Assembly (NCBI RefSeq): GCF_000177675.1
Contig: NZ_ADGX01000029.1
Location: 1 to 64,000 of the forward strand
Origin: Parafrankia sp. EUN1f
GTDB lineage: Bacteria; Actinomycetota; Actinomycetes; Frankiales; Frankiaceae
Length of the DNA: 64,000 nucleotides
Direction: 5' to 3'
A program made the translations under genes and the position numbers. Within the stretch, counting starts at the first letter, position 1; every line of letters starts with the position of its first letter. The notes under the pieces are model-generated. The model was not told the DNA's origin, searched no databases, and was given only the letters and a program-made list of their open reading frames with translations. Positions 38,765-54,622 of the stretch are shown here, one piece after another.

Positions 38765-38775
38765 GAGAGGTCCTG

Positions 38776-39153
38776 ATGCCTGCATACATCGTTCTCGATA
38801 GCCAAGATCCAGTACGTCTCGCCGACTTCTATGGCGCACTCCAAGGAGTCGAGACGCTGCTGACCTACGACGAGGGGCGGTATCACGCGATGGCGCCGAA
38901 CCGCGAGGGTCTGATGATCGTCCTGCAGCGGGTCCCCGAGGCCAAGGCGGGCAAGAACCGAGCGCATTTCGACCTCGTCGTCGACGACCTCGAGGCCGAG
39001 ACGGAGCGAGTCCTCGCGCTGGGCGGGACGTGGATCGAGCCTGGGAAGACGCACGAGCTGGAGACCTTCTCCTGGCGATGCATGGCCGACCCGGAAGGCA
39101 ACGAGTTCTGCCTTTACCTCCTGCCAGCGGGCATGAGCAACGATGCCTCCTAG
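38776..39153 (+). CDS. VOC (glyoxalase-like) family protein 1
   Basis: 125 residues from the ATG at 38776 (gagagg upstream). Vicinal-oxygen-chelate fold: IVLDSQDPVRLADFYGALQG at the start, RAHFDLVVDDLEAETERVLA in the middle and MADPEGNEFCLYLLP at the end, where the Glu of EFCL is the usual metal ligand. One VOC unit pair. Reaction unknown; in this context possibly epimerisation, isomerisation or ring-cleavage support in the catabolic pathway. Convergent with the TetR gene, overlapping by four bases. Confidence 0.88.
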   Translation: MPAYIVLDSQDPVRLADFYGALQGVETLLTYDEGRYHAMAPNREGLMIVLQRVPEAKAGKNRAHFDLVVDDLEAETERVLALGGTWIEPGKTHELETFSWRCMADPEGNEFCLYLLPAGMSNDAS

Positions 39154-39779: not shown

Positions 39780-39947
39780 AGAGCTCTTCCGTCTCGCGCC
39801 ACAGCCCGGGTCCTCGCCACACGAGCGAGGGCGGTCCGTGAGCAGGGTCTTCCTATCATCGCGCGACACCGAGGGCCCCTAGCCGGCCGCGCGTTCTCAC
39901 CCAGTGTCGTATCCGTCATATGCCAGGAAGATTCTATCCTTCAGGGC

Positions 39948-39962
39948 TGGCACGCAGTGCCA
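39948..39962. promoter_or_regulatory. TGGCAC-N3-GTGCCA operator, site 4
   Basis: tggcacgcagtgcca, a perfect palindrome identical to the core of site 3. In the divergent gap between the TetR and amidohydrolase genes. Confidence 0.75.
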
Positions 39963-40024
39963 TCCAGATCTACGTAGCTCGGCTGCGATCTTGCCAACTG
40001 GCAGGCGTGAGGTCGCGGCCGAGC

Positions 40025-40039
40025 TGGCACTGAGTGTCA
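40025..40039. promoter_or_regulatory. TGGCAC-N3-GTGCCA-type operator, site 5
   Basis: tggcactgagtgtca, one mismatch. It lies 41 bases before the amidohydrolase start and overlaps the expected promoter position. Centre-to-centre distance to site 4 is 77 bases. Confidence 0.65.
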
Positions 40040-40079
40040 TTTCGCACTACAGTGTTCTCAACCGGGCGGAAGGAGCGTC

Positions 40080-41450
40080 ATGCCGCAGGTCGCATCCGAA
40101 CAGAGTGAGCGCTACATCGTGGTGTCGACTGACAGCCACGTCGGCCCGTCGGTCGCGGGTCAGTTGCGGGACTACTGCGAGGCGAAGCACCTCGATGACT
40201 TCGATCGGTTCGTCGCGGAGATGGAGGGCCATGGACTGCTCTCGTGGCGGTCGTCGGAGGCCGCGAAGCCCGGCGAGGAGGAGAGCTGGTCGCTCGGTAG
40301 GTCCCGCGCGGAGCTGGGCAAGGAGCAGGCCGCCGCGTTCGGCAAGGTCGCGGGGATCCGCAACGCCGACCAGGTCGACCGGGGTTTTCTTCAGCGAAGC
40401 TACGAGGCTAGTCTGGTTCCAGGTTTGCAGAATCATGCCGCGCGCATCGCCGACATGGACAGGGCGGGCACCGCGGCGTCCGTTATCTACCATGGAGGCC
40501 TCAACGGCCAGTCCATCCCGTTCTCGACCACCGGCCTGATCTCCTGGGGGAACTCCAGCTACAACCACCTCGAGCCAGCCGGTGTCCGGATCTACAACCG
40601 GTGGCTCGCCGATTTCGTCTCCGAGTCCCCAGAACGCCATGCTGGCATCGCGCACATACCGATTTCCGACCCGGAAGCCTGCGTGCGTGAAGTCGAGTGG
40701 GCGGCCGCAGCAGGTCTGAAAGGGATCAACCTGCCGGCGCCTCGCAGCGACCTGCCGATGCTCAATGACCCCGTCTGGGAACCGCTCTGGGCGGTGTCTG
40801 AGGAGACGGGGCTCTCGCTCAACACGCATGGTGGCGGTGGGGAGCATTACCCCTACAAGGGCCCCGGCGCCCAGTCCATGTACATGATGGAAACTACTTG
40901 GCGTACCCGCCGGGGGGTCTGGGTGATGATCCTCGCTGGCGTCTTCGCCCGGCATCCCACACTGAAACTCGTGATGACCGAACAGTGGATGGACTGGGCG
41001 CCACAGGTCATGGCCGACATGGACGGCCTCTACTCCGGGCCCGGTGGATCGGCGCTGCGTGCGACATTGCCCGAGAGGCCCTCCACGTACTTCCACCGCA
41101 ACTGCTTCATCGGCGCGAGCTTCATGGCCAACTGGGAAGCGAAGTTCGGCGTCGAACACAACCTCGTGGCGAACACGATGTGGGGAGACGACTACCCGCA
41201 CGCCGAAGGTACCTGGCCTCACACCCGGGAGGCGATGCGGTCGACGTTCTGGGACATCGACCCAGAGCACACCCGCCGCTATCTCGGTGACACGGCGATC
41301 GAGGTCTACGGTCTCGACCGCGCCAAGCTGCGGGCGGTCGCGGACCGCATCGGCCCAACGCCCGACGAGATCGCCAACCCATTTACTCCCGCTGAGGACG
41401 AAGCCGTCGGCCTATACGCATTCCGCGAAGGCCCGGGAATCTTCGCCTAG
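40080..41450 (+). CDS. Amidohydrolase-2 family (ACMSD-like TIM-barrel) protein
   Basis: 456 residues. The N-terminal metal site is altered (VVSTDSHVGPS instead of DxDxHxxE). SLNTHGGGGEHYPY, FARHPTLKLVMTEQWMDW and NTMWGDDYPHAEGTWPHTRE supply the later His and Asp ligands of the family. Such proteins are metal-dependent hydrolases or decarboxylases, often in aromatic or steroid-like catabolism. First gene of the plus-strand operon 40080-48668, starting after operators 4 and 5. ggaagg lies upstream of the ATG. Substrate unknown. Confidence 0.88.
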   Translation: MPQVASEQSERYIVVSTDSHVGPSVAGQLRDYCEAKHLDDFDRFVAEMEGHGLLSWRSSEAAKPGEEESWSLGRSRAELGKEQAAAFGKVAGIRNADQVDRGFLQRSYEASLVPGLQNHAARIADMDRAGTAASVIYHGGLNGQSIPFSTTGLISWGNSSYNHLEPAGVRIYNRWLADFVSESPERHAGIAHIPISDPEACVREVEWAAAAGLKGINLPAPRSDLPMLNDPVWEPLWAVSEETGLSLNTHGGGGEHYPYKGPGAQSMYMMETTWRTRRGVWVMILAGVFARHPTLKLVMTEQWMDWAPQVMADMDGLYSGPGGSALRATLPERPSTYFHRNCFIGASFMANWEAKFGVEHNLVANTMWGDDYPHAEGTWPHTREAMRSTFWDIDPEHTRRYLGDTAIEVYGLDRAKLRAVADRIGPTPDEIANPFTPAEDEAVGLYAFREGPGIFA

Positions 41451-41483
41451 ACGACCAGACGCGCGCACGCTGAGGAGATCGAG

Positions 41484-42341
41484 ATGACTGCAAACCCGGC
41501 GACTTCACCGTCACCGCCATGCCGGTCGGTGACGGAAGAGGAGATCGATCATCTTCGCGAGTTCGGCTGGGTCAAGCTGAAGCGCTTCGTGGATCCGCAG
41601 TACCTGCGCTCGATGCTCGATCTTGCCCGTGAGGTGATGGGAGAGGACGCCGACAGCAACCCCATCTCCCCTGTCCTGGAAGCTGCCGTCACCGAGGGCA
41701 AGCCCGGTCTCTCGTACTTCAACGCCCAGCGCAGCTTCGGTCTGGCCCACCCCGTGCTGCGCCCGCTGATCTTCGAAATCGGCAGGAGCGCGAAGCTGCT
41801 GCAGCGACGGCGCAGCGCGGACGGGGCCGGCGTCGACGTCCGCTACTACTCGGACTTTTTCGTACCTAAGCTACCCGCGGCGAAGGCCGCGCGCCACGGC
41901 GGCAACGGGCCTACCGCCTATCACCAGGACTTCATCACCTTCGCCGTCGACCGATCCGGCGGCATGACCTTCTGGATCCCGCTGGAGCCCTGTGGGCCGC
42001 CCGCGGGAACGATGTCATTCGTCAGCGGCTCCCACCGCGAAGGCGTACTGGGCGATTACACCTGCTACGGCGACGGAGACGCCCTGGACGTCTTCCCCGA
42101 ACTCCGCCGGCTTGAGATGTCCGAGCATATGACCTATGAGCTCGGCGACATCACCGTCCACACCCACCTGACCATCCACGGCAGCGGGCCCAATATGACC
42201 GACCGCCCCCGGTGGACCTACCTCCTCGTCACACAGCCGGCTGACGCCTGCTGGAACGGCTCGCCCTGCCCGAACTTCGACTCAAGCGATATGACGCCCT
42301 GGCAGCCGTTCGGTGGCGGACGTTTCCCGGTCATCAGCTGA
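41484..42341 (+). CDS. Phytanoyl-CoA dioxygenase (PhyH) family protein
   Basis: 285 residues; ATG 41484 with gaggag upstream. A non-haem Fe(II)/2-oxoglutarate oxygenase is indicated by AYHQDFITFAVDRSGGMTFW (HxD iron ligands), ETGT-like PAGTMSFVSGSHREGVLGDY and the distal His in DITVHTHLTIHGSGPNMTDR followed by RW for 2-oxoglutarate. It hydroxylates an unknown substrate in the cytosol. 33 bases after the amidohydrolase. Confidence 0.9.
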   Translation: MTANPATSPSPPCRSVTEEEIDHLREFGWVKLKRFVDPQYLRSMLDLAREVMGEDADSNPISPVLEAAVTEGKPGLSYFNAQRSFGLAHPVLRPLIFEIGRSAKLLQRRRSADGAGVDVRYYSDFFVPKLPAAKAARHGGNGPTAYHQDFITFAVDRSGGMTFWIPLEPCGPPAGTMSFVSGSHREGVLGDYTCYGDGDALDVFPELRRLEMSEHMTYELGDITVHTHLTIHGSGPNMTDRPRWTYLLVTQPADACWNGSPCPNFDSSDMTPWQPFGGGRFPVIS

Positions 42342-42352
42342 AAGGGAAGCCA

Positions 42353-42913
42353 GTGATCCCTGCCCTCTTAACCAACCGCAGTTTCATGCAGGTGTGCTGG
42401 GTCGTGCCCGACCTCCATGCGGCCATTGACGCATGGGTCGGGTCCGCCGGCGTCGGTCCGTTCTTCTGGTTCGACGGGGTGGCGTTCGCGGACGGCCACC
42501 ACCGCGGTGAGCCAGCGGCCTTCCCCGCGGTCAGAGCCGCGATCGCCTACGCCGGCGACCTCCAGGTCGAGCTTGTGTGTCAGGACAACGACGATCCTGG
42601 CGTGTTTCGAGACGTATTCCGCCGGGGTGAGGGCGGCGTGCACCACCTGGCCATCACCTGCACCGACTACGAAGCCGAGCGCGACGCCTACCTCGCAGCA
42701 GGAGCCGTCCTGGCCTTCGAAGGGGTCACTGGCACGAGCCGTACGTGCTGGATCGACACCAGCCCAACCTTGGGATTCATGATCGAACTTTTGGAGCCGA
42801 GCGAGACGCGAGAGGCCTGGTTCTCGACCATGCGCGCGGCTGCGCGTACCTGGGACGGCTCCGACGCCATTGTCGTTCCCGGTGCGGGGACTACTGAGAT
42901 CGCCCGACACTGA
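42353..42913 (+). CDS. VOC (glyoxalase-like) family protein 2
   Basis: 186 residues; GTG 42353. The N-terminal half (MQVCWVVPDLHAAIDAWVGS, GVGPFFWFDGVAF) and the C-terminal half (GGVHHLAITCTDYEAERDAY, SPTLGFMIELLEPS) form the two babab units of a VOC protein, with His and Glu ligand positions present. This GxGPFFxF pattern occurs in VOC proteins within actinobacterial catabolic clusters. Its stop overlaps the ligase start by one base. Confidence 0.87.
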   Translation: MIPALLTNRSFMQVCWVVPDLHAAIDAWVGSAGVGPFFWFDGVAFADGHHRGEPAAFPAVRAAIAYAGDLQVELVCQDNDDPGVFRDVFRRGEGGVHHLAITCTDYEAERDAYLAAGAVLAFEGVTGTSRTCWIDTSPTLGFMIELLEPSETREAWFSTMRAAARTWDGSDAIVVPGAGTTEIARH

Positions 42914-44568
42914 TGCATCCGACCGATCACACCGCGACTTTTCCAGCTCTGCTCGCCGAGATGGTCGCGTCGCGCAGCGAACACCCGGCAGTGATCCACG
43001 GCGAGGAGGTGCTGACCTATCGTCAGCTGGAGCGCCGGTCAGGCGAGATGGCGCGGGCGTTGCTCGCCAGCGGCGTCGGCAAGGGCACTCGGATCGCTCT
43101 GCTCGCACCCGATGGCGCCCTGTGGCTGACCACCTTCTACGCGGCGCTGCGGATCGGGGCCCTAGTTACTCCGATCAGCACGCTGACGACGCCTCCGGAG
43201 CTGGCTCACATCCTGCGGACCAGCGATGCGCAGATTCTGATCGGCGCGCGCCGTTTCCTGCGCCGCGACTTCGCCAAGAACCTGACCGCGGCGCTTCCAG
43301 GGCTGGCCGCTGGTACCGCGGGTGCGCTCCGTCTGCAGTGCGCCCCGCACCTGCGCTCCGTGTGGCTCCAGGACGGTGACGGGCTCTCCTGGGCTGCGCC
43401 GGTCAGCGATCTACTCGCGCGCGCCGCGCTGCCCGGCGCTCCTGATGACGATCTGCTCGCGGCCGTGGAGCGTGAGGTCTCGCCCGCCGACGACGCGCTC
43501 GTCGTCTATACCTCGGGGAGCACCGCGACTCCCAAGGCCGTGGTTCACGGGCAGTGGGCGGTAGCGTGCCAGCCGCGGGCTCTCGCCCGGTACTTCCTGC
43601 TGACCGACGCGGACCGTACCCTGTGCCTGCTTCCCGCCTTCTGGATGGGGGGTATCGCAGCCGCGCTACAGGTCCTGAGTACCGGCGGGACGCTGATCTA
43701 TCCGCGCTCGCCCGACATCGCGGACGCCATCGAGATGATCGAGCGGCACAGCGTCACCTATGTCGTCGTCTGGCATGTGCTGCCGAGGCTGCGAGCGGCC
43801 GCTGTCGCCCGGGGCATCGACGTCGACGCGATCCGCGGCATGGGCGGGCCACCTCGTCGGGAGAACGGTGAACTCATTCCCCCGGGCCTGCGTGCCAACC
43901 TGCTCGGGATGTCCGAAAGCTTCTCCATGCACAGCGCCGAACCCATCAACCAGCGCATGCCCGATGACAAGACCGGCTCCTGTGGGCGTGGTGTGAACGG
44001 GATAGAGCGGCGGGTTGTCAGCCCGGACACCGGCGTTGAGGTTCCCCCCGGCGAGGTGGGCGAGCTTCAGCTGCGCGGGGGCGCGTTGATGACCGGCTTC
44101 TACAAAGTCGAACGGCGCACGGTGTTCACGGCCGACGGGTTCTACCCCACCAAAGACCTGGTGCGCATCGACGCGGATGGCTACGCCTACTTCGTCGGCC
44201 GCACCGGAGACATGATCAAGACGAATTCGGCAAATGTGTCCCGCCTTGAGGTGGAAGCGGCGCTGCGCGCGCTGCCCGAGGTGGACGTGGCGTTGGTCGC
44301 GGGCCTCCCGGATCCGGAGTTCGGCGAGATCGTCGTCGCGGCGGTCGTCCCGGCACCGGACACGAACCCGACAGCCGAGGGTATCCGCGCGACGCTGCGT
44401 GAACGGTTGTCCAGCTTCAAGATCCCACGACGCGTCGTGTTTATCACGCACAATGACGTCCCCCTTACGGAGACAGGAAAAGTCCGGCTGTCCGAGCTCA
44501 GGGAAATCATCCCATCCTGGTTCTCGGAGCCACCGCGGGTGGACCGAGACACAGCAGAGATTCACTGA
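42913..44568 (+). CDS. Acyl-CoA ligase (AMP-binding family) 1
   Basis: 551 residues of the adenylate-forming superfamily. The P-loop is ALVVYTSGSTATPKAVVHG. LLPAFWMGGIAAALQ, LLGMSESFSMHSAEP, GFYPTKDLVRIDADGYAYFV and GRTGDMIKTNSANVSRLEVE follow in order, ending with the catalytic lysine in VPLTETGKVRL. It activates a carboxylic acid as its CoA thioester via acyl-AMP. In this operon it likely starts beta-oxidation of the substrate side chain or ring-derived acid. Confidence 0.92.
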   Translation: MHPTDHTATFPALLAEMVASRSEHPAVIHGEEVLTYRQLERRSGEMARALLASGVGKGTRIALLAPDGALWLTTFYAALRIGALVTPISTLTTPPELAHILRTSDAQILIGARRFLRRDFAKNLTAALPGLAAGTAGALRLQCAPHLRSVWLQDGDGLSWAAPVSDLLARAALPGAPDDDLLAAVEREVSPADDALVVYTSGSTATPKAVVHGQWAVACQPRALARYFLLTDADRTLCLLPAFWMGGIAAALQVLSTGGTLIYPRSPDIADAIEMIERHSVTYVVVWHVLPRLRAAAVARGIDVDAIRGMGGPPRRENGELIPPGLRANLLGMSESFSMHSAEPINQRMPDDKTGSCGRGVNGIERRVVSPDTGVEVPPGEVGELQLRGGALMTGFYKVERRTVFTADGFYPTKDLVRIDADGYAYFVGRTGDMIKTNSANVSRLEVEAALRALPEVDVALVAGLPDPEFGEIVVAAVVPAPDTNPTAEGIRATLRERLSSFKIPRRVVFITHNDVPLTETGKVRLSELREIIPSWFSEPPRVDRDTAEIH

Positions 44569-44610
44569 TCGTCACCGATCTGAGTTCCACGAGTCACAGG
44601 AGCAACGCAC

Positions 44611-45585
44611 ATGGCTGAGGCAACGGGGCGTCCTTCCGCCGAGGAGATCGTGTTGTACGAGAAAGACCCGGACACACGTATCGCCACGATCACCCTGGAC
44701 CGCGCTGACGAGCTCAACGCCATGACGATCGACGCCCAGCACCGCTACGCCGACCTGATCCGGCAGGCCGGCATCGACGACGAAGTCAAGGTGCTAGTCA
44801 TCCGGGCTAACGGACCCAACCTGGGTAGCGGCGCTGACCTACCGGAGCTGATGGACATCATGGCTCGCCGCGGCGACGTCACGATGAAGCACATTGTTCG
44901 GATCCCCGAGGACGCCGACGTCGAGTACCCGCGGACGGGCACTTATCGCTACGGGGCGTCGAACGTGCAGTTCTACACGGATCCGAGCGCCGGGATGCGA
45001 AGCCTTCAGGATTTCAAGAAGATCAGCATCCTCGAGGTCCGCGGCTACTGTTACGGCTGGCACTTCTACCAGGCAGCCGATGCCGATATCGTCATCTCCG
45101 CCGAGGACGCCCTGTTCGGCCACGCCGCGTTCCGCTACGCCGGATTCGCGGCCCGACAGTGGCAGTGGTGCTCGATGATGGGTATTCGCAAGTTCATGGA
45201 GATGGTCTTCACCGGCCGGCCGTTCACCGCCAAGGAGATGTACGACTGCGACTTCGTCAACGCCGTCGTGCCGTTCGACGAGCTCGAGGCGATGACGGCC
45301 AAGTACGCGCTCGCGTGCGCACGCTCACGGCCGACCGACACGGTGTTCGTCCAGAAGACCTTCTTCGAAATCTTCAAACAGCACCAGGGTGAATACATGG
45401 GCAGCATCCTTTCCGGGCTTCTGGAGTCGACCGGGCGCCTGCTGCGACCCGACGGTGAAGGGCTTGAAATCAACCGGGAGACCCTCGACCGCGGGCTAAC
45501 GGGCGCCGTCCGCGACAATGACGAGCGCTTTCCACCCGAGTGGCGCCTCAGCCGGCGCGGCCGCGGCGACGCCCCGCAGGTGTGA
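44611..45585 (+). CDS. Enoyl-CoA hydratase/isomerase family protein 1
   Basis: 324 residues. Crotonase fold: TITLDRADELNAMTIDAQHR, RANGPNLGSGADLPELMDIM (oxyanion-hole region) and EVRGYCYGWHFYQAADADIV. The second oxyanion segment is atypical (GYCYGWH in place of G-x-GxGxx) and no usual catalytic Glu pair is evident, so it may catalyse another crotonase reaction such as ring cleavage or dehalogenation. An insert of about 40 residues follows the first motif. In the same operon as the ligase. Confidence 0.87.
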   Translation: MAEATGRPSAEEIVLYEKDPDTRIATITLDRADELNAMTIDAQHRYADLIRQAGIDDEVKVLVIRANGPNLGSGADLPELMDIMARRGDVTMKHIVRIPEDADVEYPRTGTYRYGASNVQFYTDPSAGMRSLQDFKKISILEVRGYCYGWHFYQAADADIVISAEDALFGHAAFRYAGFAARQWQWCSMMGIRKFMEMVFTGRPFTAKEMYDCDFVNAVVPFDELEAMTAKYALACARSRPTDTVFVQKTFFEIFKQHQGEYMGSILSGLLESTGRLLRPDGEGLEINRETLDRGLTGAVRDNDERFPPEWRLSRRGRGDAPQV

Positions 45586-45586
45586 A

Positions 45587-46888
45587 ATGGTCGTCCTCGC
45601 GAATGCTCGTATCTTCGACGGTCACACGATGCGCCCGGGCATGAGCTCGGTCGTGGTGGATGGCAATATCATCACTGCTGTAGGCGAGACCGCTGGCCGC
45701 GATGGCAACGATGTCATCGACGTGGGTGGCATGACTGTCATGCCCGGTCTGATCACCTCTCATCTGCACCCGGACTTCTACAAGTTCGATATCTTCTCCG
45801 GTGAGAAGCCCGGCAAGGAACTGCCGCCCGGGGTGATGATGGCGATCGGCGTCCGCACCTGCCGGGTGCTGCTGGAAAGCGGCTTCACCGGCTATGCGGG
45901 TGCCGGGTGCGCCCATGACATCGACGCGCAGCTGAAGATGGCCATCGCCCAGGACATCATCCCGGGACCCCGGATCCGGGCCTGCGGGCACCATATCGGC
46001 ACCACGGGCGACATGAACAACCGCAGCCGCTGGTGGAAACGCTACGAGACGCCCGGCATCGACCTGTGCGGCGATGGTCCCGACGCTATCCGCATGATGG
46101 TCCGGCAGGAGATCAGTCGCGGCGTGGAGATCATCAAGGTCTTCGCCGGCGCCGGGCACGGCATTCCCAACGCGACCTCGCGGAACATCTCGCGAGACGA
46201 GCTTTCCTCGTTGGTACGCACAGCCCATGAACGCGGAGCCAAAGTCCGTGCACACGTGGCCGACAAGGAAATGATCCTCGAATGCCTCGATCTCGGCGTC
46301 GACATCATCGACCACGGTGACGAGATCGACCAGGAGTGCATCGACCTGATGGTCGCGGCCGGCACCTTCTGGGTACCCAGTCTTGTCTACCTGTGGAGCC
46401 TGCTCGAGATTGGTTATGCGGCGAAGTTCGGTGTTACGCCGGCGCTCTACGATCACGTGCGCGAGATGCTCCCTGTCGCCCAGCAGGCGGGTGTGCGGAT
46501 CCTGCTAGGGGACGACTACAGCGGCGTATTCCGCACGATGATCGAGGATGATCCGCTTGATCACCAGGTCGGCAACTACGGCCGCGAGTTCGCGTTCTAC
46601 TCCGAGATCGACGGCCTGTCACCGGCGGAGGTACTCACCTGGGGGACGAGCAACGCCGGGCAGCTTCTCGTCGACGCACCCGCGACGGTCGGTGTGATCG
46701 CGCCTGGCGCGCTCGCTGACCTGATCGTCGTCGACGGTGATCCACTCGCTGATCCGACCCTGCTCTCACGGCCCGACGAGGCCCTGAAGGCGGTGTTCCG
46801 GGACGGAGTCCTGGTCATCGACTATCTGCCGACGTCGAAGGCTCCGACGGAGCGCTCGACAGCTCTGGGACGGGAGGTCCGACGGTGA
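45587..46888 (+). CDS. Metal-dependent amidohydrolase (imidazolonepropionase-like)
   Basis: 433 residues from the ATG at 45587, one base after the preceding stop. VLANARIFDGHTMRPGMSSV and MTVMPGLITSHLHPDFYKFD (HxH metal ligands) open the composite domain. EIIKVFAGAGHGIP contains the likely carboxylated Lys. KVRAHVADKEM and DIIDHGDEID give two more His, and ILLGDDYSG gives the Asp. A cyclic amidohydrolase/prolidase-like enzyme. The GTG of the next SDR overlaps its end by four bases. Likely hydrolyses an amide or lactone-like intermediate. Confidence 0.9.
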   Translation: MVVLANARIFDGHTMRPGMSSVVVDGNIITAVGETAGRDGNDVIDVGGMTVMPGLITSHLHPDFYKFDIFSGEKPGKELPPGVMMAIGVRTCRVLLESGFTGYAGAGCAHDIDAQLKMAIAQDIIPGPRIRACGHHIGTTGDMNNRSRWWKRYETPGIDLCGDGPDAIRMMVRQEISRGVEIIKVFAGAGHGIPNATSRNISRDELSSLVRTAHERGAKVRAHVADKEMILECLDLGVDIIDHGDEIDQECIDLMVAAGTFWVPSLVYLWSLLEIGYAAKFGVTPALYDHVREMLPVAQQAGVRILLGDDYSGVFRTMIEDDPLDHQVGNYGREFAFYSEIDGLSPAEVLTWGTSNAGQLLVDAPATVGVIAPGALADLIVVDGDPLADPTLLSRPDEALKAVFRDGVLVIDYLPTSKAPTERSTALGREVRR

Positions 46889-47640
46889 CGGGCGACGCCG
46901 CGTCGAGAAAAGTTGCTTTTATCACTGGCGCCGGTTCGGGCATCGGCCGGGCGGCGGCGCAGGCGTTCTTGCGCCGCGGGTATGCCACTGTGCTCGCCGA
47001 CGTGAACGAGCAGGCCGGGCAGGAGGCCCAGGGCGAACTCGGCGCGCTGGGAGAATGCATCTATGTCCGCTGCGATGTGGCGGATGACGACACGGTGCGG
47101 GCCGCCGTCGACACCGCCGTGGCCGCCTACGGACGGTTGGACGCGGCTTTCAACGCCGCGGGCATCGACGGCGAACAGGGCAAGCTCGTCGCCGAGTCGA
47201 GTCTGGAGAACTGGAACCGCGTCATCGCGGTCGATCTCACGGGCACCTGGTCCTGCATGCGTTATCAACTGCCTGCGCTGTTGGCATCGGGGGGCGGTGC
47301 CATCGTGAACTGCGCCTCGGTCGCGGGAATCCGGGCCGCACCGACGGTCTCCGCCTACACCGCCGCCAAGCACGGGGTTGTGGGGCTCACACGGGCGGCG
47401 GCTCGCGAGTATGCCTCCCGCGGGGTGCGCGTGAATGCCCTGTGCCCGGGGACCGTCGACACGCCGATGTTCCGGGCGTCCATGTCGGAGGAGACAATCG
47501 AACGTCTCATTCGCGCCAATCCGTCCGGCCGCGTCGCCGAAGCGCGCGAGATCGCCGACACGGCGGTCTGGCTGTGCACCGATGCGCCGGCATACCTCAC
47601 CGGTCAGGCCATCGCCGTTGACGGAGCAGCCGGCGCCTGA
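46885..47640 (+). CDS. Short-chain dehydrogenase/reductase
   Basis: 251 residues; GTG 46885. Classical SDR: AFITGAGSGIGRAAAQAFLR, NAAGID, NCASVAGIRAAPTVSAYTAA followed by KHG (Ser-Tyr-Lys), RVNALCPGTVDTPMF and the terminal TGQAIAVDGAAG. All catalytic residues are present. Probably oxidises a hydroxyl produced by one of the oxygenases in the cluster. Confidence 0.92.
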   Translation: MTGDAASRKVAFITGAGSGIGRAAAQAFLRRGYATVLADVNEQAGQEAQGELGALGECIYVRCDVADDDTVRAAVDTAVAAYGRLDAAFNAAGIDGEQGKLVAESSLENWNRVIAVDLTGTWSCMRYQLPALLASGGGAIVNCASVAGIRAAPTVSAYTAAKHGVVGLTRAAAREYASRGVRVNALCPGTVDTPMFRASMSEETIERLIRANPSGRVAEAREIADTAVWLCTDAPAYLTGQAIAVDGAAGA

Positions 47641-47785
47641 CCCGGCTGCCGGGTGGATCCAAGGCGCGATCCGTGGCGCCAACTTCCACCTGATGAACCC
47701 GCGTGCCACCAGGCCAGCTGGATCATTCTCGCATCGAGTTGCTACCGGAAGGCCGAAGCCCACCAGTGAGCTAGAAAGGACCGCG

Positions 47786-48199
47786 ATGCATCGCATTCTG
47801 TTGAGCACCTTCGTCATCGACACCCCCGGGCAGGCCCGTGACCAGACGGTGGCTTTCTGGTCGGCGGCGTTGGGTGCAGAAGCACATGCCACCAAACTTC
47901 CGGCGTACCATATTCTCGCGGACGCGGCTGATCCCAACCGCATTGTTGTCCAGGATGTCGGCCCCGGCGCGGCCGGCGTCCATTTCGACATCCACACCGA
48001 CGATCTCGAGGGCGAGGTCAAGCGCCTCGTCGACTGCGGCGCCACGGTCGTCGACGCGTCGTGGGCGAACCATCCAGGGCGCTGGGTGATCATGCGGGAC
48101 CCGGCCGGCATGGAGTTCTGCGTGGTGTTCGCGCTGAACGAACTGCGCCCGCAGGCCGACCGCGACGAATTCGAACGTCGGGCCAAGGTCGTTGGTTGA
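47786..48199 (+). CDS. VOC (glyoxalase-like) family protein 3
   Basis: 137 residues; ATG 47786 with aaagga upstream, after a 145-base gap. ILLSTFVIDTPGQARDQTVA and FWSAALGAEA open the fold; AGVHFDIHTDDLEGEVKRLV and VIMRDPAGMEFCVVF (Glu ligand) close it. It resembles the glyoxalase-like group of actinobacterial VOC proteins. Substrate unknown. Confidence 0.87.
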   Translation: MHRILLSTFVIDTPGQARDQTVAFWSAALGAEAHATKLPAYHILADAADPNRIVVQDVGPGAAGVHFDIHTDDLEGEVKRLVDCGATVVDASWANHPGRWVIMRDPAGMEFCVVFALNELRPQADRDEFERRAKVVG

Positions 48200-48668
48200 T
48201 CTGGTGACACCGCCGACGGACGATGCCGCTGAGATCATCCACCTGTGTGCTGTGTACGCGCTCAAAATGTCCCAGGGCGATATTCACCACATCATCGAGC
48301 ATCTCATCACTCCGGACGGGAGCTACTCCGCGTTCGGTGACACGTACAGCCTCGCGGACTGGCCACGGCTGGTCGAGGCCGCGCCGAAGGGCCTGTTCCT
48401 CACCGGAGCACCTGTGCTCGATCTCGACGGTGACTCCGGAACGGGCGAGGTTCCCCTTCTCTTCATCGACCAGACCAACCACCGGATGCGCATGGGTTGG
48501 TACAGCGACACCTACCGTCGAACCGCGGACGGCTGGCGCCTCGTCACCCGGAAGATGACATTCCTCCGTCGTCACGGCGGCGCGGACTCGGGCATGCCCC
48601 ACGACCCGACCCGGCCGGCACCCACGGGGAAGGGAACATCCGTCACAGATGTGGCCGGTCTGGCCTGA
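48192..48668 (+). CDS. SnoaL/NTF2-like small protein
   Basis: 158 residues from the TTG at 48192, overlapping the previous gene by 8 bases; a GTG at 48204 is an equally good start. The alpha+beta barrel pattern is DDAAEIIHLCAVYALKMSQG, GSYSAFGDTYSLADW, NHRMRMGWYSDTYRRTADGW and RLVTRKMTFLRR. This resembles SnoaL-like/bile-acid dehydratase-type proteins, which isomerise or dehydrate small ring compounds. Last gene of the plus-strand operon; its stop codon lies at the base of the hairpin at 48664-48718. Confidence 0.75.
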   Translation: MVDLVTPPTDDAAEIIHLCAVYALKMSQGDIHHIIEHLITPDGSYSAFGDTYSLADWPRLVEAAPKGLFLTGAPVLDLDGDSGTGEVPLLFIDQTNHRMRMGWYSDTYRRTADGWRLVTRKMTFLRRHGGADSGMPHDPTRPAPTGKGTSVTDVAGLA

Positions 48669-48718
48669 TCGTCGTCGCCGTCGAGCCCGACCGCGAGCGG
48701 GCTCGACGGTCGATCAGG
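48664..48718. terminator. Bidirectional hairpin between converging operons
   Basis: An inner perfect 12-bp stem (48678-48689 with 48698-48709, 8-base loop) is flanked by an outer 8-bp stem (48664-48671 with 48711-48718). It spans exactly the gap where the plus-strand operon (ending 48668) meets the minus-strand operon (ending 48714). No long T-run is present, as usual for high-GC actinomycetes. Likely terminates both transcripts. Confidence 0.75.
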
Positions 48719-49844
48719 ATCTCGGCATGCCCAGAACGCGGTGGGCGATGAGGTTCCTCTGGATCTGGGCCGTGCCGCCCATGACGCTCTGAGCCCTGCT
48801 GTACAGGTACGTGGCAAGCATGCTGGCCCCGACCTCGTCGTGGGTGGCCCCGGCGATGTCGACGGCCGCGTGGCCCACGGTCTGCTCGACCGAGGTCATG
48901 AGAAGTTTGTCGATGGAGCCCTCGACGCCATGATCCAGGCCGTCGAGGCGCTCAGACAGCCGCCGGCTGACGAGGTGCGCCAGCATGTCGGACTCCACGA
49001 TCGCCCACGCGAGCTGCCGGAACTGCTCCGCGTCGTAGCCCGCGGGATCGTCGCGCAGGAACTTCTGCAACTGCTTCACGGTCTTGCGGTAGCGGCTGGC
49101 GTTGCCCAGCTCCTGCGGTTCGCGTTCGTGCGCCAGTACGGTCATCGCGACGGCCCACCCGTCGCCGGACGAGCCGATCATGTTGACCGCCGGGACGACC
49201 GCGGCGTCGAACGTGACCTCTCCGAACTCGCGGGCCACGCCGCTGATCATCTTCAGGGGTCGTTGGGTGATGCCCGGCTGGTTCATCGGGATCGCGAAGG
49301 CGGACAGGCCCCGGTGGCCGCGCGCGTCCGGATCTGTGCGGGCCAGCAGCAGGCACCAGTCGGCCACGTCCGAGTAGCTCGTCCAGACCTTGTGACCGGT
49401 CACGATGAACTGGTCACTGTCGCGCACAGCCCGGGTGCGCAGGGACGCGAGGTCGGAGCCCGCGTCGGGTTCGCTGAACCCCTGGCACCAGCGCGCCCGT
49501 CCGCTGATCAGATCGGGGAGGAACCTGTCTTTGACGTCGTCGTTCGCGTGCGCACAGATCGCTTGGACGAGGTAGCCGAGGTTGGGGCGCGGCGGCGCGT
49601 GGGCGGCCGCGAGCTCCTCGTCGACGATCACGTCATAGACGGTCGGCCTGTCGTGGCCACCGTAGCGGACCGGCCACGAAAGCCCGAAGAACCCGGCTCG
49701 ATACAGAGACCGGTGCCATTCGGGCTGCTTTTCCCAGTACTCGTCCGAGGTGGACGAGGCGGGCAGATGCGGGTTGTTCTCGCCGAGCCAGGCCCGCAGC
49801 CGCACGCGGAACCGGGCCTCCTCGGCCGAGTCGGCGAAGTCCAT
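48714..49844 (-). CDS. Acyl-CoA dehydrogenase, subunit 1 of a coupled pair
   Basis: 376 residues. The ATG at 49844 overlaps the stop of the upstream acyl-CoA dehydrogenase gene (ATGA). FAD-dependent family motifs: WCQGFSEPDAGSDLASLRTR, GHKVWTSYSDVADWCLLLAR, and the C-terminal QSVMGGTAQIQRNLIAHRVL. Members with this partner arrangement often form alpha2-beta2 heterotetramers, as the FadE pairs in mycobacterial sterol catabolism. Predicted to desaturate an acyl-CoA intermediate. Confidence 0.92.
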   Translation of the reverse strand: MDFADSAEEARFRVRLRAWLGENNPHLPASSTSDEYWEKQPEWHRSLYRAGFFGLSWPVRYGGHDRPTVYDVIVDEELAAAHAPPRPNLGYLVQAICAHANDDVKDRFLPDLISGRARWCQGFSEPDAGSDLASLRTRAVRDSDQFIVTGHKVWTSYSDVADWCLLLARTDPDARGHRGLSAFAIPMNQPGITQRPLKMISGVAREFGEVTFDAAVVPAVNMIGSSGDGWAVAMTVLAHEREPQELGNASRYRKTVKQLQKFLRDDPAGYDAEQFRQLAWAIVESDMLAHLVSRRLSERLDGLDHGVEGSIDKLLMTSVEQTVGHAAVDIAGATHDEVGASMLATYLYSRAQSVMGGTAQIQRNLIAHRVLGMPRS

Positions 49845-50839
49845 CAGAGATGACCTCCCAGGCCGGCGTGCTCGAGCACGCGCGCCAGGTTGGGACCGAC
49901 GCCACCGAGTACGTCGGTCGCGAGCAGGGTGCGACGCAGGTACACATGCGCGAGGCACTCCCAGGTGTTCCCGATGCCGCCGTGCACCTGGATGCAGGTC
50001 TCGCAGACCAGCCGTGCGCCGCGCGCGGCGTAGGCCTTGGCGGAGGCGGCGGCCGCGACGGCATCCGGCGGGGCAAGCGAGTCGACGCCCCACGCCGCGT
50101 ACAGCAGCGCTGCCCGCGCACCCTCGATCTGGACGAGAGCGTCAGCGAGCAGGTGCGCCACCGCCTGGAAGGAGCCGATCTGCTTCCCGTACTGGACGCG
50201 CTGCCCGGCGTAGGTCACGGCGAGATCCAGCGCACCCCTCATCGAGCCGACGAGGTCGGCCGTGGTAATCGTGAGAGCGAGGGCGGTCCAGCGCTGCCGG
50301 TCGGCTTCCGTCAGCGACCCGACCGTGACCGCTTCTGTGTTCGGGATCAGCGCCATCGGCCGGGTGAGGTCGATCGAACCGGCCTTCTCGTGTAGCCCCG
50401 CGGCGACGAGGGTGCCATCCGCGGCGAGCAGCAACGCCGACCCGGCGTCGCGGGCGTCGATCGCGAGCGCCGGCTCACCCGGCGATGCTAGGGCGGCGAG
50501 GTTGCGGCGCAGGCCGACCGTCTCGCGGTCAACGGCCTGCGAAGCTCGCGCGAGACGCCGGAGCTCCATGGCCAGCGTCGGCCCGAGGAACGGCGCGTCC
50601 GCGAGCCCGCGCCCGAGCTCCTCGGCGACGATGGCGACTTCGACCCCCGACGCAATGGGGCCGCCGCGATCGTCGGGTGCGCGTAGCTCCCGCCATCCCG
50701 AGCTCTCGACGGCCTCGTCGAGCGCGGCCGCCCTCCTCTCGTCGGCGAGATCGGCAACCGCCCGTGACCCGAGCCGATCGATCACACGGCGCGCGGCCTG
50801 GCACAGTGCCCGCTGCTCAGCGGTGTATCGAACGTCCAT
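49844..50839 (-). CDS. Acyl-CoA dehydrogenase, subunit 2 of a coupled pair
   Basis: 331 residues, a shorter and more divergent acyl-CoA dehydrogenase. The middle domain is degraded compared with its neighbour (EPALAIDARDAGSALLLAAD). The C-terminal helical part is well kept: LVGSMRGALDLAVTYAGQRV, QYGKQIGSFQAVAHLLADAL and QVHGGIGNTWECLAHVYLRR. It probably pairs with the protein at 48714-49844 as a heteromeric enzyme. ATGA overlap with it. Confidence 0.9.
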   Translation of the reverse strand: MDVRYTAEQRALCQAARRVIDRLGSRAVADLADERRAAALDEAVESSGWRELRAPDDRGGPIASGVEVAIVAEELGRGLADAPFLGPTLAMELRRLARASQAVDRETVGLRRNLAALASPGEPALAIDARDAGSALLLAADGTLVAAGLHEKAGSIDLTRPMALIPNTEAVTVGSLTEADRQRWTALALTITTADLVGSMRGALDLAVTYAGQRVQYGKQIGSFQAVAHLLADALVQIEGARAALLYAAWGVDSLAPPDAVAAAASAKAYAARGARLVCETCIQVHGGIGNTWECLAHVYLRRTLLATDVLGGVGPNLARVLEHAGLGGHL

Positions 50840-50891
50840 CAGAACGCGCCGGTCGCGGCTGCGCGCCGCCTGGGCTCCGGGTGGCCCATGG

Positions 50892-52262
50892 TCACGTCAG
50901 ATACGTATCGAGCGTGGCGTGGAAGTGCCGTATCCGGCTTTCCTGATAGAGCGCCAGGGTGGTCCTGGCGGCCACCGAGGCGCGCAGGCCACGCTGGATG
51001 CGTCCCATCGTCACCCCGTCCTGGTTGAAGACACGACCGAACACCCCCAGTTCAGGCGCGCTGGTCCAGCTTTCGTCGTCGCGCAGAACCCGCGTCGGCG
51101 CGGGGCGCGGCCGGACGCCGCCCTCGGGCAGCGGCTCCAGGACCATGATGTCGATCACGCAGGACTCGGGATCGTTGCCATGGGGCCGGAACCGGTACGC
51201 GAACGAGGTGAGCAGGCCTGCCCAGGGCATGAAGTTCGGAAAGAGGAGGTACTCGATCCCGTCGAGGAGCTCCGCGTCACTCACGGCTGAATAGTCGCGC
51301 CCGGTGCGTGCGGCCAGCGACTTTCGCACCCGCGCGGCGAGGGTGCTCCTCGCGTTCGCTCCCGGTTCGATGGTGACCTCGGCGTCGCGTGAGCCCAGCA
51401 TCCTGCGCACGATGGCGACGTCGTCGGGCGGATCCTCGAGATGGTCGCTGCTCACACCGACAGCAGTGATCATTCGGCTCACGTGTTGCCCGTAGACGTC
51501 GTACTCACTCAGCGAGTCAGCCGCCGTCGGCAACAGCTGGGGGTGTGTCGCCATGGTGTGGTAGGCCTCGATGAACGCCTCCAGCGCAACCTTCCAGTTA
51601 CAGGGCATGACACGCACGATGTGAGCTTTGAGGTAGCGGTCCTCCAGCGGCCACCGCGCGAAGTGCCACGGCAGGGTCTCGAGGTATTCGCCGAGGGGGG
51701 CCGCGTCTTGGTCGATGTTCACGAAGACGAACCCGCCCCACGTCGCGACCTGGGCCTGGGGAAGGCAGAAGCCGGTTCGGTCGATGTGGGGGAAGTCCCA
51801 TGCCGAGGGAATCTCGCTGAGCGTCCCGTCGAGGTTCCAGGTGAATCCGTGGAAGGGGCACCGGATGTTACTCAGAGGTCCCCCTTTCGTGCGCAGCTGT
51901 GTTCCTCGGTGCAGGCAGGAGTTGTGATAAGCCCTGATGTCATCGGGTGCCGCGCGCAGGACGATGAGTGACCAGTCGGCGATGTCGTAGACGATCGAGT
52001 CCCCGACCTCGGGGATCTGCTCTTCCCGGCAGGCCATCTGCCACGTGTGGCCCCAGACCTTGTCGACCTCGCGCCGATGGAACTCCGGGTCGAAGTAGCG
52101 CGTCGGCGCGATACCTCCCGGCTCCGTGTAGCCAGCCGAGACCGCACGCAGGCTCTCCGGCACCGGACGCGTCTCCGCATCCAGCAACCGCTGGTAGAAG
52201 TGCTGGCCGCGGGCAATCCCGTCGGGCGCGCGTTCCTGGGACAGCGCGTCTGATGTGGTCAC
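50892..52262 (-). CDS. Rieske non-haem iron ring-hydroxylating oxygenase, alpha subunit
   Basis: 456 residues from the GTG at 52262 with ggagga upstream. The Rieske [2Fe-2S] site is CLHRGTQLRTKGGPLSNIRC followed by PFH. The mononuclear iron site is ALEAFIEAYHTMATHP with two His. It hydroxylates an aromatic or polycyclic substrate using electrons from a reductase; no reductase or beta subunit is adjacent, as for many KshA-like or homomultimeric oxygenases. Third gene of the minus-strand operon. Substrate unknown. Confidence 0.92.
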   Translation of the reverse strand: MTTSDALSQERAPDGIARGQHFYQRLLDAETRPVPESLRAVSAGYTEPGGIAPTRYFDPEFHRREVDKVWGHTWQMACREEQIPEVGDSIVYDIADWSLIVLRAAPDDIRAYHNSCLHRGTQLRTKGGPLSNIRCPFHGFTWNLDGTLSEIPSAWDFPHIDRTGFCLPQAQVATWGGFVFVNIDQDAAPLGEYLETLPWHFARWPLEDRYLKAHIVRVMPCNWKVALEAFIEAYHTMATHPQLLPTAADSLSEYDVYGQHVSRMITAVGVSSDHLEDPPDDVAIVRRMLGSRDAEVTIEPGANARSTLAARVRKSLAARTGRDYSAVSDAELLDGIEYLLFPNFMPWAGLLTSFAYRFRPHGNDPESCVIDIMVLEPLPEGGVRPRPAPTRVLRDDESWTSAPELGVFGRVFNQDGVTMGRIQRGLRASVAARTTLALYQESRIRHFHATLDTYLT

Positions 52263-52299
52263 GTTCGCTCCTCCTTCACCCGTTGGGGACCTCGGGTCG

Positions 52300-52764
52300 T
52301 CAGTCCGCCGGAAGCAGCACCGGCAGCAGGGCTCGGTCGACGATCTCCACATACAGCCCGCCGCGCGCACGCAGATAGGTGCACATCGGCGGCCGGTCGT
52401 CTCTGAGCGCGATCGACGCAGTGAACATCCACCCGAGCGCTTCCAGGGCCTCGGTCGCGGCCGCCAGGTCGTCGACCCAGTAGCCAAGGTGATGAGCGTG
52501 GCCCGGGGCCACGGCCGTCCACAGCGTTCCCTCGATGGACTGGACAAGTTCGATGTGGTGTGTGCCTTCTCGAGACAGGACGTAGGCGGTGGAGACCGCG
52601 CGCGTCCCCTCGCAGGTGCGCAGCCGCACGTTGGCACCGCCCTCATACCAGGTCACGCCGAGCGCAGAGCCGAGTTCTTCTCTGCCGGCGTCAAGGTCAT
52701 CGACGACGATGCCGGTGTGAAAAAGATCCTCGGACCGCAAAATGCCGGCCACGGTATTTGTCAC
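52300..52764 (-). CDS. VOC (glyoxalase-like) family protein 4
   Basis: 154 residues; the ATG at 52764 is 22 bases after the ligase stop. EDLFHTGIVVDDLDAGREEL, THHIELVQSIEGTLWTA, HAHHLGYWVDDLAAATEALE and GGLYVEIVDRALLPVL form the two VOC units with His and Glu ligands. Similar to methylmalonyl-CoA-epimerase-like VOC proteins. Within the Rieske/acyl-CoA dehydrogenase operon. Confidence 0.87.
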   Translation of the reverse strand: MTNTVAGILRSEDLFHTGIVVDDLDAGREELGSALGVTWYEGGANVRLRTCEGTRAVSTAYVLSREGTHHIELVQSIEGTLWTAVAPGHAHHLGYWVDDLAAATEALEALGWMFTASIALRDDRPPMCTYLRARGGLYVEIVDRALLPVLLPAD

Positions 52765-52786
52765 AGGTTCAGTCGATCCTTTGCCA

Positions 52787-54442
52787 TCAAGGAGAGTCGA
52801 GCATCCTGCACCTTGGTTCCGCTGTGGTTGAGCGGGATCTCACCGTCGGCAAAAAAATAACCTTCTTGGGCACCTTGTAGCTTGCCAACCGTTCCCGCAG
52901 GAACGAGGTTATCTCCTGTTCTGTGGCCTCCGATCCGTCTTTCAACTCGACACAGAGAACCACGATCTGGTCCAGGCGGTCGTCCTGGATACCTATCACT
53001 CGTGCGAGTCTGACGGGTTCGAAGGCGTGGAGTTGGAGCTCGATTTCCGCTGGGGACACGTTCGCACCACCCGTTTTGATCACCTCAGTGCGGCGACCAG
53101 AGAAATAGACGTTGCCATCCTCGTCGTAGAAGCCCAGATCTCCGGTGTGGAAGAAGCCTTCGAGATCGAAACACTGCGAGCGCGTTCGCTTCACATACCG
53201 TTCCATGAGTGTCGGCCCACGAACGATGATCTCGCCCTGTTCCCTGACCCCGAGAACCTGGCCTGTCCCGGGGTCGATCACTCGCAGCTGGCTTCCCGGA
53301 AGCACACGCCCGTAGGAACCACCCCGTAGCTTTTCCCGCGGTGTGTCGCTCGGGAATCCGGTGAAGAACGACGAGGTCTCCGACATGCCGTAGCCGACGG
53401 GCATGTTCCAGGTCACGTCGCCACTGACCGTCGGGTGGCGGGTGAACACGGACTTACCGAAAACCTTGGTACATGACGAGAGATCGGTGTCCGGCCAGCG
53501 GGGATCCTCCTCGAGCGCCCGCGCCTGGTGAGCGAAGGCGTGCGGCTCGGTCACCCGTTCTCGTTCCAGGAGCCGCAGGGCCTGGCCCGATTCGAACCGC
53601 TCCTGCATGACCCACGTTCCGCCCGCCGCTATCGTCGCTCCCATCGCGGCGTTGAGACCTGCCGTCCAGAACAGCGGGAGAGGGCTCCAGACCCGCGTAG
53701 CCGAGTCCCGCCCGAAGAGCCTGGCCTGCATCCACCACTGCAGCGCGACCGCCTGATGCGCGTGGAGAACCCCTTTGGGGCGGTCGGTCGTCCCGGAGCT
53801 GTAGATGATGGTCGCAGGGTCGGACGGGTCGACTTGATCCTCGACCGCATTGAGCAACACGTCGCTCACCGCGTTACCGCGGTCGAGGAAGGTGTCCCAG
53901 CTCTGGAGGCCTCCGGACTCCGCTGGGGGCCCGAATACCGCGACGTGGCGGAGGAAGGGGTAGGAGGGGTCCCAGACCTGCCCCGCGCCTGACGCGGCCG
54001 GGCAGAGCTCGACGAGGTCGGCGGCGAACCGGCGGCGCCCCATCGATGTCTGCGCGAGCAGCACAGCCACGTCGGAATGGGCCATCAGGTAGGACAACTC
54101 GGGCCCAGGCGAGAAGGTCGAGAGGGGCACGGCGACCGCCCCGGCGAGCGCCACCCCGAACAGCGAGGCCACGGCTTCGGGGCGGTTTCCCATAAGGATC
54201 CCGACGTGCGTGCCCTTGCTGGTGCCGGACGCGATGAGCGCCTTCGCGACCCGCCGGGCCTGGTCGGCGAGATCGCGATAGGTCCAACGCACCGTTCCGT
54301 CGAACAACGGGTCGTCGAAGACCAGCGCCTCGTGACCGGGAAATGCCGCTGCCTGATCGGTGAGGACTCGGCCAAGAGTGAGCGCGCCGACGTCGGGTGC
54401 CTCCCGTAACGGCGGGCCGCTGAGCGTTCCGGACTCTGACAC
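52787..54442 (-). CDS. Acyl-CoA ligase (AMP-binding family) 2
   Basis: 551 residues from the GTG at 54442. ATIIYSSGTTDRPKGVLHAH is the P-loop (SSGTT). PLFWTAGLNAAMGATIAAGG, VGYGMSETSSFFTG, GFFHTGDLGFYDEDGNVYFS and GRRTEVIKTGGANVSPAEIE follow. The C-terminal lysine motif is degenerate: the last strand ends in KVIFLPTVRSRSTTAEPRCR, without the usual TxTGK, suggesting a frame change or altered end. First gene of the minus-strand operon; operators 6 and 7 are upstream. Activates a carboxylic acid. Confidence 0.9.
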   Translation of the reverse strand: MSESGTLSGPPLREAPDVGALTLGRVLTDQAAAFPGHEALVFDDPLFDGTVRWTYRDLADQARRVAKALIASGTSKGTHVGILMGNRPEAVASLFGVALAGAVAVPLSTFSPGPELSYLMAHSDVAVLLAQTSMGRRRFAADLVELCPAASGAGQVWDPSYPFLRHVAVFGPPAESGGLQSWDTFLDRGNAVSDVLLNAVEDQVDPSDPATIIYSSGTTDRPKGVLHAHQAVALQWWMQARLFGRDSATRVWSPLPLFWTAGLNAAMGATIAAGGTWVMQERFESGQALRLLERERVTEPHAFAHQARALEEDPRWPDTDLSSCTKVFGKSVFTRHPTVSGDVTWNMPVGYGMSETSSFFTGFPSDTPREKLRGGSYGRVLPGSQLRVIDPGTGQVLGVREQGEIIVRGPTLMERYVKRTRSQCFDLEGFFHTGDLGFYDEDGNVYFSGRRTEVIKTGGANVSPAEIELQLHAFEPVRLARVIGIQDDRLDQIVVLCVELKDGSEATEQEITSFLRERLASYKVPKKVIFLPTVRSRSTTAEPRCRMLDSP

Positions 54443-54463
54443 GCCAGCCACTCTAACCAGAGA

Positions 54464-54478
54464 TGACACCCGGTGCCA
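54464..54478. promoter_or_regulatory. TGGCAC-N3-GTGCCA-type operator, site 6
   Basis: tgacacccggtgcca, one mismatch. It is 21 bases upstream of the ligase start on the minus strand. Confidence 0.65.
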
Positions 54479-54479
54479 T

Positions 54480-54497
54480 AGTGCTGGCTGCAGCACT
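54480..54497. promoter_or_regulatory. Additional inverted repeat between operators 6 and 7
   Basis: agtgctg and cagcact are 7-bp perfect arms around a gctg loop, placed between the two operator copies. Possibly part of a larger regulator footprint or a small RNA stem. Confidence 0.4.
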
Positions 54498-54518
54498 GGT
54501 TTTGGTGAGCCAATTCCC

Positions 54519-54533
54519 TGGCACCCGGTGCCA
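54519..54533. promoter_or_regulatory. TGGCAC-N3-GTGCCA operator, site 7
   Basis: tggcacccggtgcca, a perfect palindrome. Centre-to-centre 55 bases from site 6, in the divergent gap between ligase 2 and the SDR at 54623. Confidence 0.75.
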
Positions 54534-54622
54534 GGATGCGTCTAGTCTCCGCGGCAGACCGAAGGCGCGGCAGCCCGGCCCTGACCGGGCCTGGGTACCG
54601 CAGGACGCGAGGAGGAGAACAA

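Follow-up and report, generated by a model that had tools for sequence, protein, structure and literature searches.

A conserved, probably mobile gene unit of Frankiaceae as a candidate route for the breakdown of a cyclic carboxylic acid

A conserved unit shared by Frankiaceae

We analyzed 64,000 nucleotides (the window) of contig NZ_ADGX01000029.1 of Parafrankia sp. EUN1f, a contig of 74,669 bases in a genome of 9.35 Mb and 396 contigs. The window contains a conserved unit at about 36.2-55.6 kb, as delimited by DNA synteny with three Frankiaceae contigs, which encodes several oxygenases together with enzymes of acyl-coenzyme A (CoA) metabolism. Gene classes were assigned by profile searches of the window proteins against Pfam and curated models with cut-offs. 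A first-pass annotation, made from the sequence alone, had placed an undescribed-looking catabolic pathway at 40,080-54,442. All the gene classes that it named are present, including four VOC proteins, a SnoaL-like protein, two acyl-CoA ligases and an acyl-CoA dehydrogenase pair. Its limits were too narrow, however: a cytochrome P450, a class II aldolase, a TetR regulator and one of the VOC genes lie to the left of 40,080, and synteny assigns a further short-chain dehydrogenase/reductase (SDR; 54,626-55,555) to the right end of the unit. The parts are ordinary and their combination is unusual; we regard them as a real, conserved and probably mobile catabolic unit.

DNA homology to Frankia sp. 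AiPa1 (about 90%) spans 34,357-55,580, and that to Parafrankia colletiae Cc1.17 (about 84%) spans 36,248-55,545. In both genomes, whose flanks were also compared, the homology breaks off abruptly on either side (at 34,357 or 36,248, and at 55,545 or 55,580). The homology to Pseudofrankia asymbiotica covers 36,262-54,678 and extends to the end of its contig. Most pieces match at about 81-83% and the P450 region at 72%; the order of the P450 and the aldolase is changed, and the stretch at 48.6-50.9 kb, which corresponds to the acyl-CoA dehydrogenase pair (48,714-50,839), is missing. The GC content of the block is 0.660, compared to 0.714 in the left flank and 0.689 in the right flank. Two of the three carriers of the syntenic block belong to genera other than that of the host, and a crotonase match at E 1e-60 was missing in 52 of the 58 genomes of that search. 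The sharp limits of synteny, the lower GC content, the carriers in other genera and the many genomes lacking the crotonase together form the pattern of a mobile element, and sequence comparison thus indicates that the unit, of about 19-21 kb, is probably a horizontally acquired island.

A seven-gene core recurs in other lineages

Seven genes of the unit form a core with the order Amidohydro_2 protein, PhyH oxygenase, VOC protein, ligase, crotonase, amidohydrolase and SDR. We searched for this core around relatives of the crotonase at 80 named genome loci, fetched by crotonase alignment (the best 80 of 500 passing relatives). Ten of them have a crotonase that is at least 79% identical, and all ten carry the seven genes in order: the three Frankiaceae, Actinomadura sp. 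7K507, Mycobacterium arosiense, an Acidimicrobiales metagenome-assembled genome, Mycobacterium sp. URHD0025, M. setense, Mycobacterium sp. OTB74 and Mycolicibacterium sp. P1-5. An eleventh locus with the identical order lies on a plasmid of Mycobacterium branderi (crotonase 78%); the PLSDB table does not list its ligase, which is present in the DNA. The core order is therefore kept in 11 out of 11 loci with a crotonase at least 78% identical, a conservation far beyond chance. Searches of plasmid records gave one close match for both the crotonase and the Amidohydro_2 protein, that of M. branderi; the latter protein also has a weaker match in Rhodococcus (35.5% identity, 59% covered). None of the 148 other genomes sampled from the phylum (149 with the host's own) had a match to the Amidohydro_2 protein at E 1e-150.

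The crotonases of the other 70 loci are 60-65% identical. Of all 80 loci, 53 have an oxygenase of the dinuclear type described below next to the crotonase-family gene, and 69 have a ligase or a CoA-transferase there. Seven Novosphingobium loci share about half of the core, with PhyH, VOC, amidohydrolase, SDR, ligase, crotonase and Rieske genes that are, the Rieske aside, 44-65% identical; their completeness varies by locus. They differ from the unit in their rearranged order and in their P450 and Rieske proteins (about 30%), and a TonB receptor lies near some of them. A second operon of the crotonase family resembles the unit in its crotonase (about 62%), its dinuclear oxygenase and its adjoining P450, but a double CaiB CoA-transferase replaces the ligase, and two M24 proteins, which are creatinase/prolidase-like, stand where the unit has PhyH and the amidohydrolase. 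This operon type marks a large group of actinobacteria among the 70 loci; it occurs, with variations, in mycobacteria, Streptomyces, Nocardia, Amycolatopsis and others.

The first-pass annotation recognized no known cluster with this gene set. No characterized cluster of this gene set turned up in the literature searches, although only open-licence articles were covered and this is weak evidence of absence. The claim holds in that sense, but the gene set is not unique to the host: the core recurs in mycobacteria, Actinomadura and the Acidimicrobiales genome, and Novosphingobium has about half of it.

The Amidohydro_2 protein is a predicted dinuclear oxygenase

The first core gene (40,080-41,450, plus strand) is labeled Amidohydro_2 (PF04909, E 2e-20). 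Based on its residues and its predicted structure, it very probably encodes an oxygenase rather than an amidohydrolase. In profile searches of solved structures it matches PtmU3 best (E 1e-40), with DitZ and 5-carboxyvanillate decarboxylase next. In the sections of the sources available to us, PtmU3 is described as a monooxygenase with a nonheme diiron site that acts on diterpenoid-CoA intermediates (PMC10127204) and is termed a beta-hydroxylase that takes CoA-ligated substrates (PMC7782822). We had considered a thioesterase reading of the gene and dropped it on the basis of these two descriptions. The class is named amidohydrolase-related dinuclear oxygenases (AROs) in the available part of a third source (PMC10811679). 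DitZ (PDB 8uyr) was a repeated match, of which literature searches gave no account.

The predicted metal ligands are D18, H20, H250, E301, D371 and H374 (three His and three carboxylates), with E376 as a seventh, acidic residue. All seven positions are invariant in a 37-sequence alignment. The set is complete in 11 out of 12 orthologues, the twelfth being a fragment with an N-terminal gap, and in all the neighbors in related clusters (42 of 42, 4 of 4 and 13 of 13, counted per family). The ligands match those published for AibH2 (Asp25, His27, His211, Glu265, Asp337 and His340) in order and closely in spacing, and their positions also match those published for LynB7. The extra acidic residue, represented here by E376, has been reported in dinuclear members alone (PtmU3 Glu313, AibH2 Asp342).

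The structural model (predicted local distance difference test, pLDDT, 73.8, with weak loops at 52-115) fits PtmU3 best (Z 35.9, root-mean-square deviation 2.9, 341 aligned positions). Z gaps below 1 were treated as ties, and PtmU3 stands 2.5 above the next entry. The first 11 entries (Z 31.7-35.9) are PtmU3, DitZ, SfbO and its kin, and AibH1H2, all of the ARO class or named with it, whereas the first decarboxylase has a Z of 30.8. By fold, the protein is nearer to the solved dinuclear oxygenases than to the mononuclear PF04909 enzymes. We are confident in the predicted assignment of its fold and site to the AROs, which is an assignment of class and not of activity. The likeness to PtmU3, AibH2, SfbO and LynB7 lies in the PF04909 fold, the six ligands with the extra acidic residue, and the top fold match. 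The difference is that all the orthologues of the protein that were seen (72-96% identical) belong to this cluster family. In addition, no small Rieske ferredoxin or reductase was recognized beside the gene, in contrast to aibG/aibF as presented in the available part of the source. Three oxygenase chemistries and two amidohydrolases had been counted at first. The P450, the Rieske protein and PhyH stand, but because the Amidohydro_2 protein has the dinuclear oxygenase ligand set, the unit holds four oxygenase chemistries, and this mislabeled enzyme is its most informative feature.

We also inspected the 47 PF04909 matches of the host genome. The full dinuclear set is present in 36 (35 of the 46 others and the protein itself), and three more keep the six ligands with Thr at the seventh position. 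A CoA ligase lies within 10 kb of 20 of these 36 proteins (about 12% expected for random positions) and an acyl-CoA dehydrogenase within 10 kb of 17 (10% expected); for the other 11 PF04909 proteins the numbers are two and two. Catabolic genes generally cluster, which the random expectation does not take into account, and thus the excess reflects an association with catabolic neighborhoods, not a function. It supports the view that the class often works on CoA-linked substrates. Because 36 of the 47 proteins carry the signature and cluster near acyl-CoA genes, dinuclear oxygenases may be common and misannotated as amidohydrolases. The label 'amidohydrolase' in actinobacterial degradation islands may often hide an oxygenase, which would alter pathway reconstruction.

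The core crotonase lacks the glutamates of enoyl-CoA hydratases

The core crotonase (44,611-45,585, plus strand) was recognized by profile, and its model (pLDDT 84.3) has the crotonase fold (Z 28.6 to PDB 4k29). At the two Glu columns of enoyl-CoA hydratases, which we take to be the catalytic positions, it has Tyr153 and Ala173. Eight paralogues in the host genome have Glu at both columns, and many others lack one or both. W150, H151, Y153, H171, R175 and Y176 are invariant in a 51-sequence alignment. These residues argue against plain hydration. The lost Glu pair, the SDR and oxygenase neighbors and the lack of a recognized thiolase in the unit suggest an acyl-CoA enzyme that would cleave a C-C bond by a retro-aldol or retro-Claisen reaction. 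Beta-diketone hydrolases such as 6-oxocamphor hydrolase were also considered as the nearest kin of the protein. These are not singled out by fold (for instance, the beta-diketone hydrolase ABDH, 2j5s, has Foldseek rank 50), so that we can only infer the cleavage chemistry.

Other genes of the unit

The remaining core genes are all on the plus strand. The PhyH-family protein (41,484-42,341; Pfam E 4e-15) has the HxD motif and distal His of Fe(II)/2-oxoglutarate oxygenases, and its best solved relatives are SnoN, EvdO2 and SnoK. It is followed by a VOC protein (Glyoxalase_4, 42,353-42,913, assigned by profile and core synteny) and acyl-CoA ligase 1 (42,913-44,568; AMP-binding E 2e-55, with a P-loop). 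Beyond the crotonase lie a true, prolidase-like amidohydrolase (45,587-46,888; Amidohydro_1 E 7e-23, HxH and Asp, matches to PDB 3mkv and 3feq) and SDR 1 (46,885-47,640; profile match and motifs).

Two further plus-strand genes encode a VOC protein (Glyoxalase_6, 47,786-48,199, profile match) and a SnoaL-like NTF2-fold protein (48,192-48,668; SnoaL_4 E 1e-9). The next five genes are on the minus strand. The acyl-CoA dehydrogenase of large-subunit type (48,714-49,850) scores 173 bits with the PimC model, far under the cut-off of 624, and its IpdE2-like partner (49,844-50,839) scores 99.8 bits with the IpdE2 model, whose curated cut-off is 450. Although the first-pass annotation stressed this pair, which is indeed present, it is accessory, since it is missing from the P. 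asymbiotica block. The pair is followed by a Rieske non-haem oxygenase alpha subunit (50,892-52,271; Rieske and Ring_hydroxyl_A, with the CxH and CxxH cluster motifs), a VOC protein (Glyoxalase_4, 52,300-52,764, profile match) and acyl-CoA ligase 2 (52,787-54,496; AMP-binding E 8e-67). SDR 2 (54,626-55,555, plus strand, profile match) is the last gene of the syntenic block, which ends at 55,545-55,580.

At the left end, the P450 (36,246-37,445, minus strand, 399 amino acids; Pfam p450 E 4e-27) has intact haem-Cys and acid/Thr motifs and is 94-95% identical in two of the Frankiaceae blocks and 64% in the third. The class II aldolase/adducin family protein (37,643-38,461, minus strand, 272 amino acids; Aldolase_II) scores 402.6 bits with NF004855 (cut-off 255). 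A VOC gene (Glyoxalase_6, 38,776-39,153, plus strand, start codon approximate; Pfam E 6e-25) is 88% conserved as DNA in a relative genome. The TetR protein (39,150-39,779, minus strand; TetR_N and TetR_C_14) is the probable regulator of the unit. It scores 214.5 bits with the model of MftR, the mycofactocin regulator (cut-off 224.9), hinting at a possible link to mycofactocin-type redox chemistry. No ferredoxin or reductase was recognized among the genes of the unit, and thus oxygenases that require electrons would need partners encoded elsewhere.

A periplasmic binding-protein lipoprotein gene (34,564-35,910, minus strand; Peripla_BP_6) adjoins the unit. It is kept beside it in Frankia AiPa1 (84% identical), but neither of the two remaining Frankiaceae blocks was found to contain it. 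Because it is linked in only one block of three, it is not firmly part of the unit, and the sensing role proposed for it at first is unsupported.

A possible pathway and its alternatives

We propose, with a probability of roughly one half, that the unit was acquired horizontally and serves to degrade a branched, cyclic carboxylic acid of terpenoid-like structure, which would be processed as a CoA thioester through stacked oxygenations. Ligase 1 or 2 would convert the acid to its acyl-CoA. The PtmU3-type dinuclear oxygenase would then hydroxylate the beta carbon, a tertiary or quaternary position out of reach of normal beta-oxidation, while the P450, PhyH and Rieske oxygenases would hydroxylate other positions and the SDRs would turn alcohols into ketones. 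The glutamate-less crotonase would split the resulting acyl-CoA, which carries a beta-hydroxy or beta-oxo group, in a retro-aldol or retro-Claisen reaction. The acyl-CoA dehydrogenase pair, where present, would shorten the opened chain, and the amidohydrolase, aldolase, VOC and SnoaL proteins would work on later fragments. The gene content, the core order, the sharp limits of synteny, the metal-ligand set and the loss of the two glutamates are observed, and the substrate class, the order of the steps, the C-C cleavage by the crotonase and the beta-hydroxylation by the dinuclear oxygenase are inferred. The initial suggestion of sterol- or terpenoid-like ring catabolism is thereby supported in part, a CoA-dependent catabolic route being still the best reading.

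Several observations weigh against this proposal. The platensimycin enzymes are biosynthetic, so kinship with PtmU3 is no proof of catabolism. Neither a thiolase nor a steroid-ring signature gene was recognized among the genes of the unit, and the lack of a ferredoxin and a reductase there counts in the same direction. In addition, none of the nine Novosphingobium-type loci that share half of the core has a dinuclear oxygenase, and that step is therefore not universal.

The biosynthetic role of PtmU3 may instead indicate a tailoring cluster that builds a platensimycin-like terpenoid or polyketide. The PhyH protein is closest to SnoN and SnoK, presumably of the nogalamycin pathway, and a ketosynthase-like frame, read by eye, starts near 63.2 kb. 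That frame is outside the syntenic block, however, and no terpene synthase, polyketide synthase or nonribosomal peptide synthetase was seen within the block. The two ligases, the acyl-CoA dehydrogenase pair and the aldolase fit degradation, and the core is common to Mycobacterium and partly to Novosphingobium, which makes biosynthesis rather unlikely. In aromatic or lignan-type catabolism, the Amidohydro_2 protein would be a decarboxylase, the VOC proteins would cleave rings and the Rieske protein would dihydroxylate or demethylate. PF04909 does include decarboxylases such as LigW (PDB 4icm, E 2e-18 to our protein), and the relatives of the Rieske domain include naphthalene and biphenyl dioxygenases. 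We consider this improbable because the dinuclear ligand set is complete and invariant, the solved dinuclear oxygenases outrank all decarboxylases by fold, and no dioxygenase beta subunit was recognized. Catabolism of the ring or side chain of a steroid (sterol or bile acid) by a variant gene set would account for the IpdE2-like partner in the acyl-CoA dehydrogenase pair and for ligase 2, which scores 189.6 bits (cut-off 750) with a steroid-24-oyl-CoA synthetase model, one of several that it matches. Each of these scores falls far short of its curated cut-off, and the pair is missing from one syntenic block; a steroid substrate is improbable too.

Under the proposed breakdown of a terpenoid-like acid, the unit would offer a testable gene set for the degradation of a recalcitrant cyclic acid, and would extend a recently defined oxygenase class, with few characterized members, into acyl-CoA catabolism. 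A broader idea, which we hold only tentatively and consider somewhat doubtful, is that PtmU3-type beta-hydroxylation and the C-C cut by a glutamate-less crotonase form a dedicated bypass of beta-oxidation blocked at a branched ring carbon. The pair would be widespread (53 out of the 80 loci sampled), with its members annotated as 'amidohydrolase' and 'enoyl-CoA hydratase'. Dinuclear oxygenases of the amidohydrolase fold would be a major misannotated catabolic class (36 in one genome).

The nearest functional analogue of the unit is the diterpenoid-CoA tailoring of platensimycin and platencin (PtmO5, PtmO3/O6 and PtmU3), in which PtmO3/O6 are 2-oxoglutarate enzymes. As far as the available part of the source describes it, the P450 PtmO5 and PtmO3/O6 act on the diterpenoid skeleton (PMC8180501), so several oxygenase chemistries share one, partly CoA-linked skeleton. 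The unit differs in having two ligases, a crotonase, the acyl-CoA dehydrogenase pair, a Rieske protein and an aldolase. Because of these degradative accessory genes, and because no terpene synthase was seen, we do not count it as a member.

Abscisic acid was considered as a substrate because Novosphingobium and Rhodococcus degrade it. Nothing ties it to the cluster: in the available part of that paper, the product is dehydrovomifoliol, oxygenases and hydrolases are mentioned only generally, and the enzymes of both strains are still under study.

Flanking genes

An AveC-like 'spirocyclase' family gene (57,897-59,069, E 7e-100) lies just outside the block, where a TetR gene and a second crotonase are also found. 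The AveC-like gene and the second crotonase (56-59 kb) were excluded from the unit because synteny stops at 55.6 kb. In M. branderi and M. arosiense, too, AveC-like genes lie close to the core. Further right (59,479-64,000), a small polyketide-cyclase-like protein, a MarR regulator and an SDR follow in a row; beyond that SDR we read by eye a major facilitator superfamily (MFS)-like frame on the other strand and the ketosynthase-like frame, which runs off the window. The left flank (18,723-33,269) is very GC-rich (0.72-0.75), encodes glycosyltransferases of the GT1/GT4 and GT9 types, and looks unrelated to the unit.

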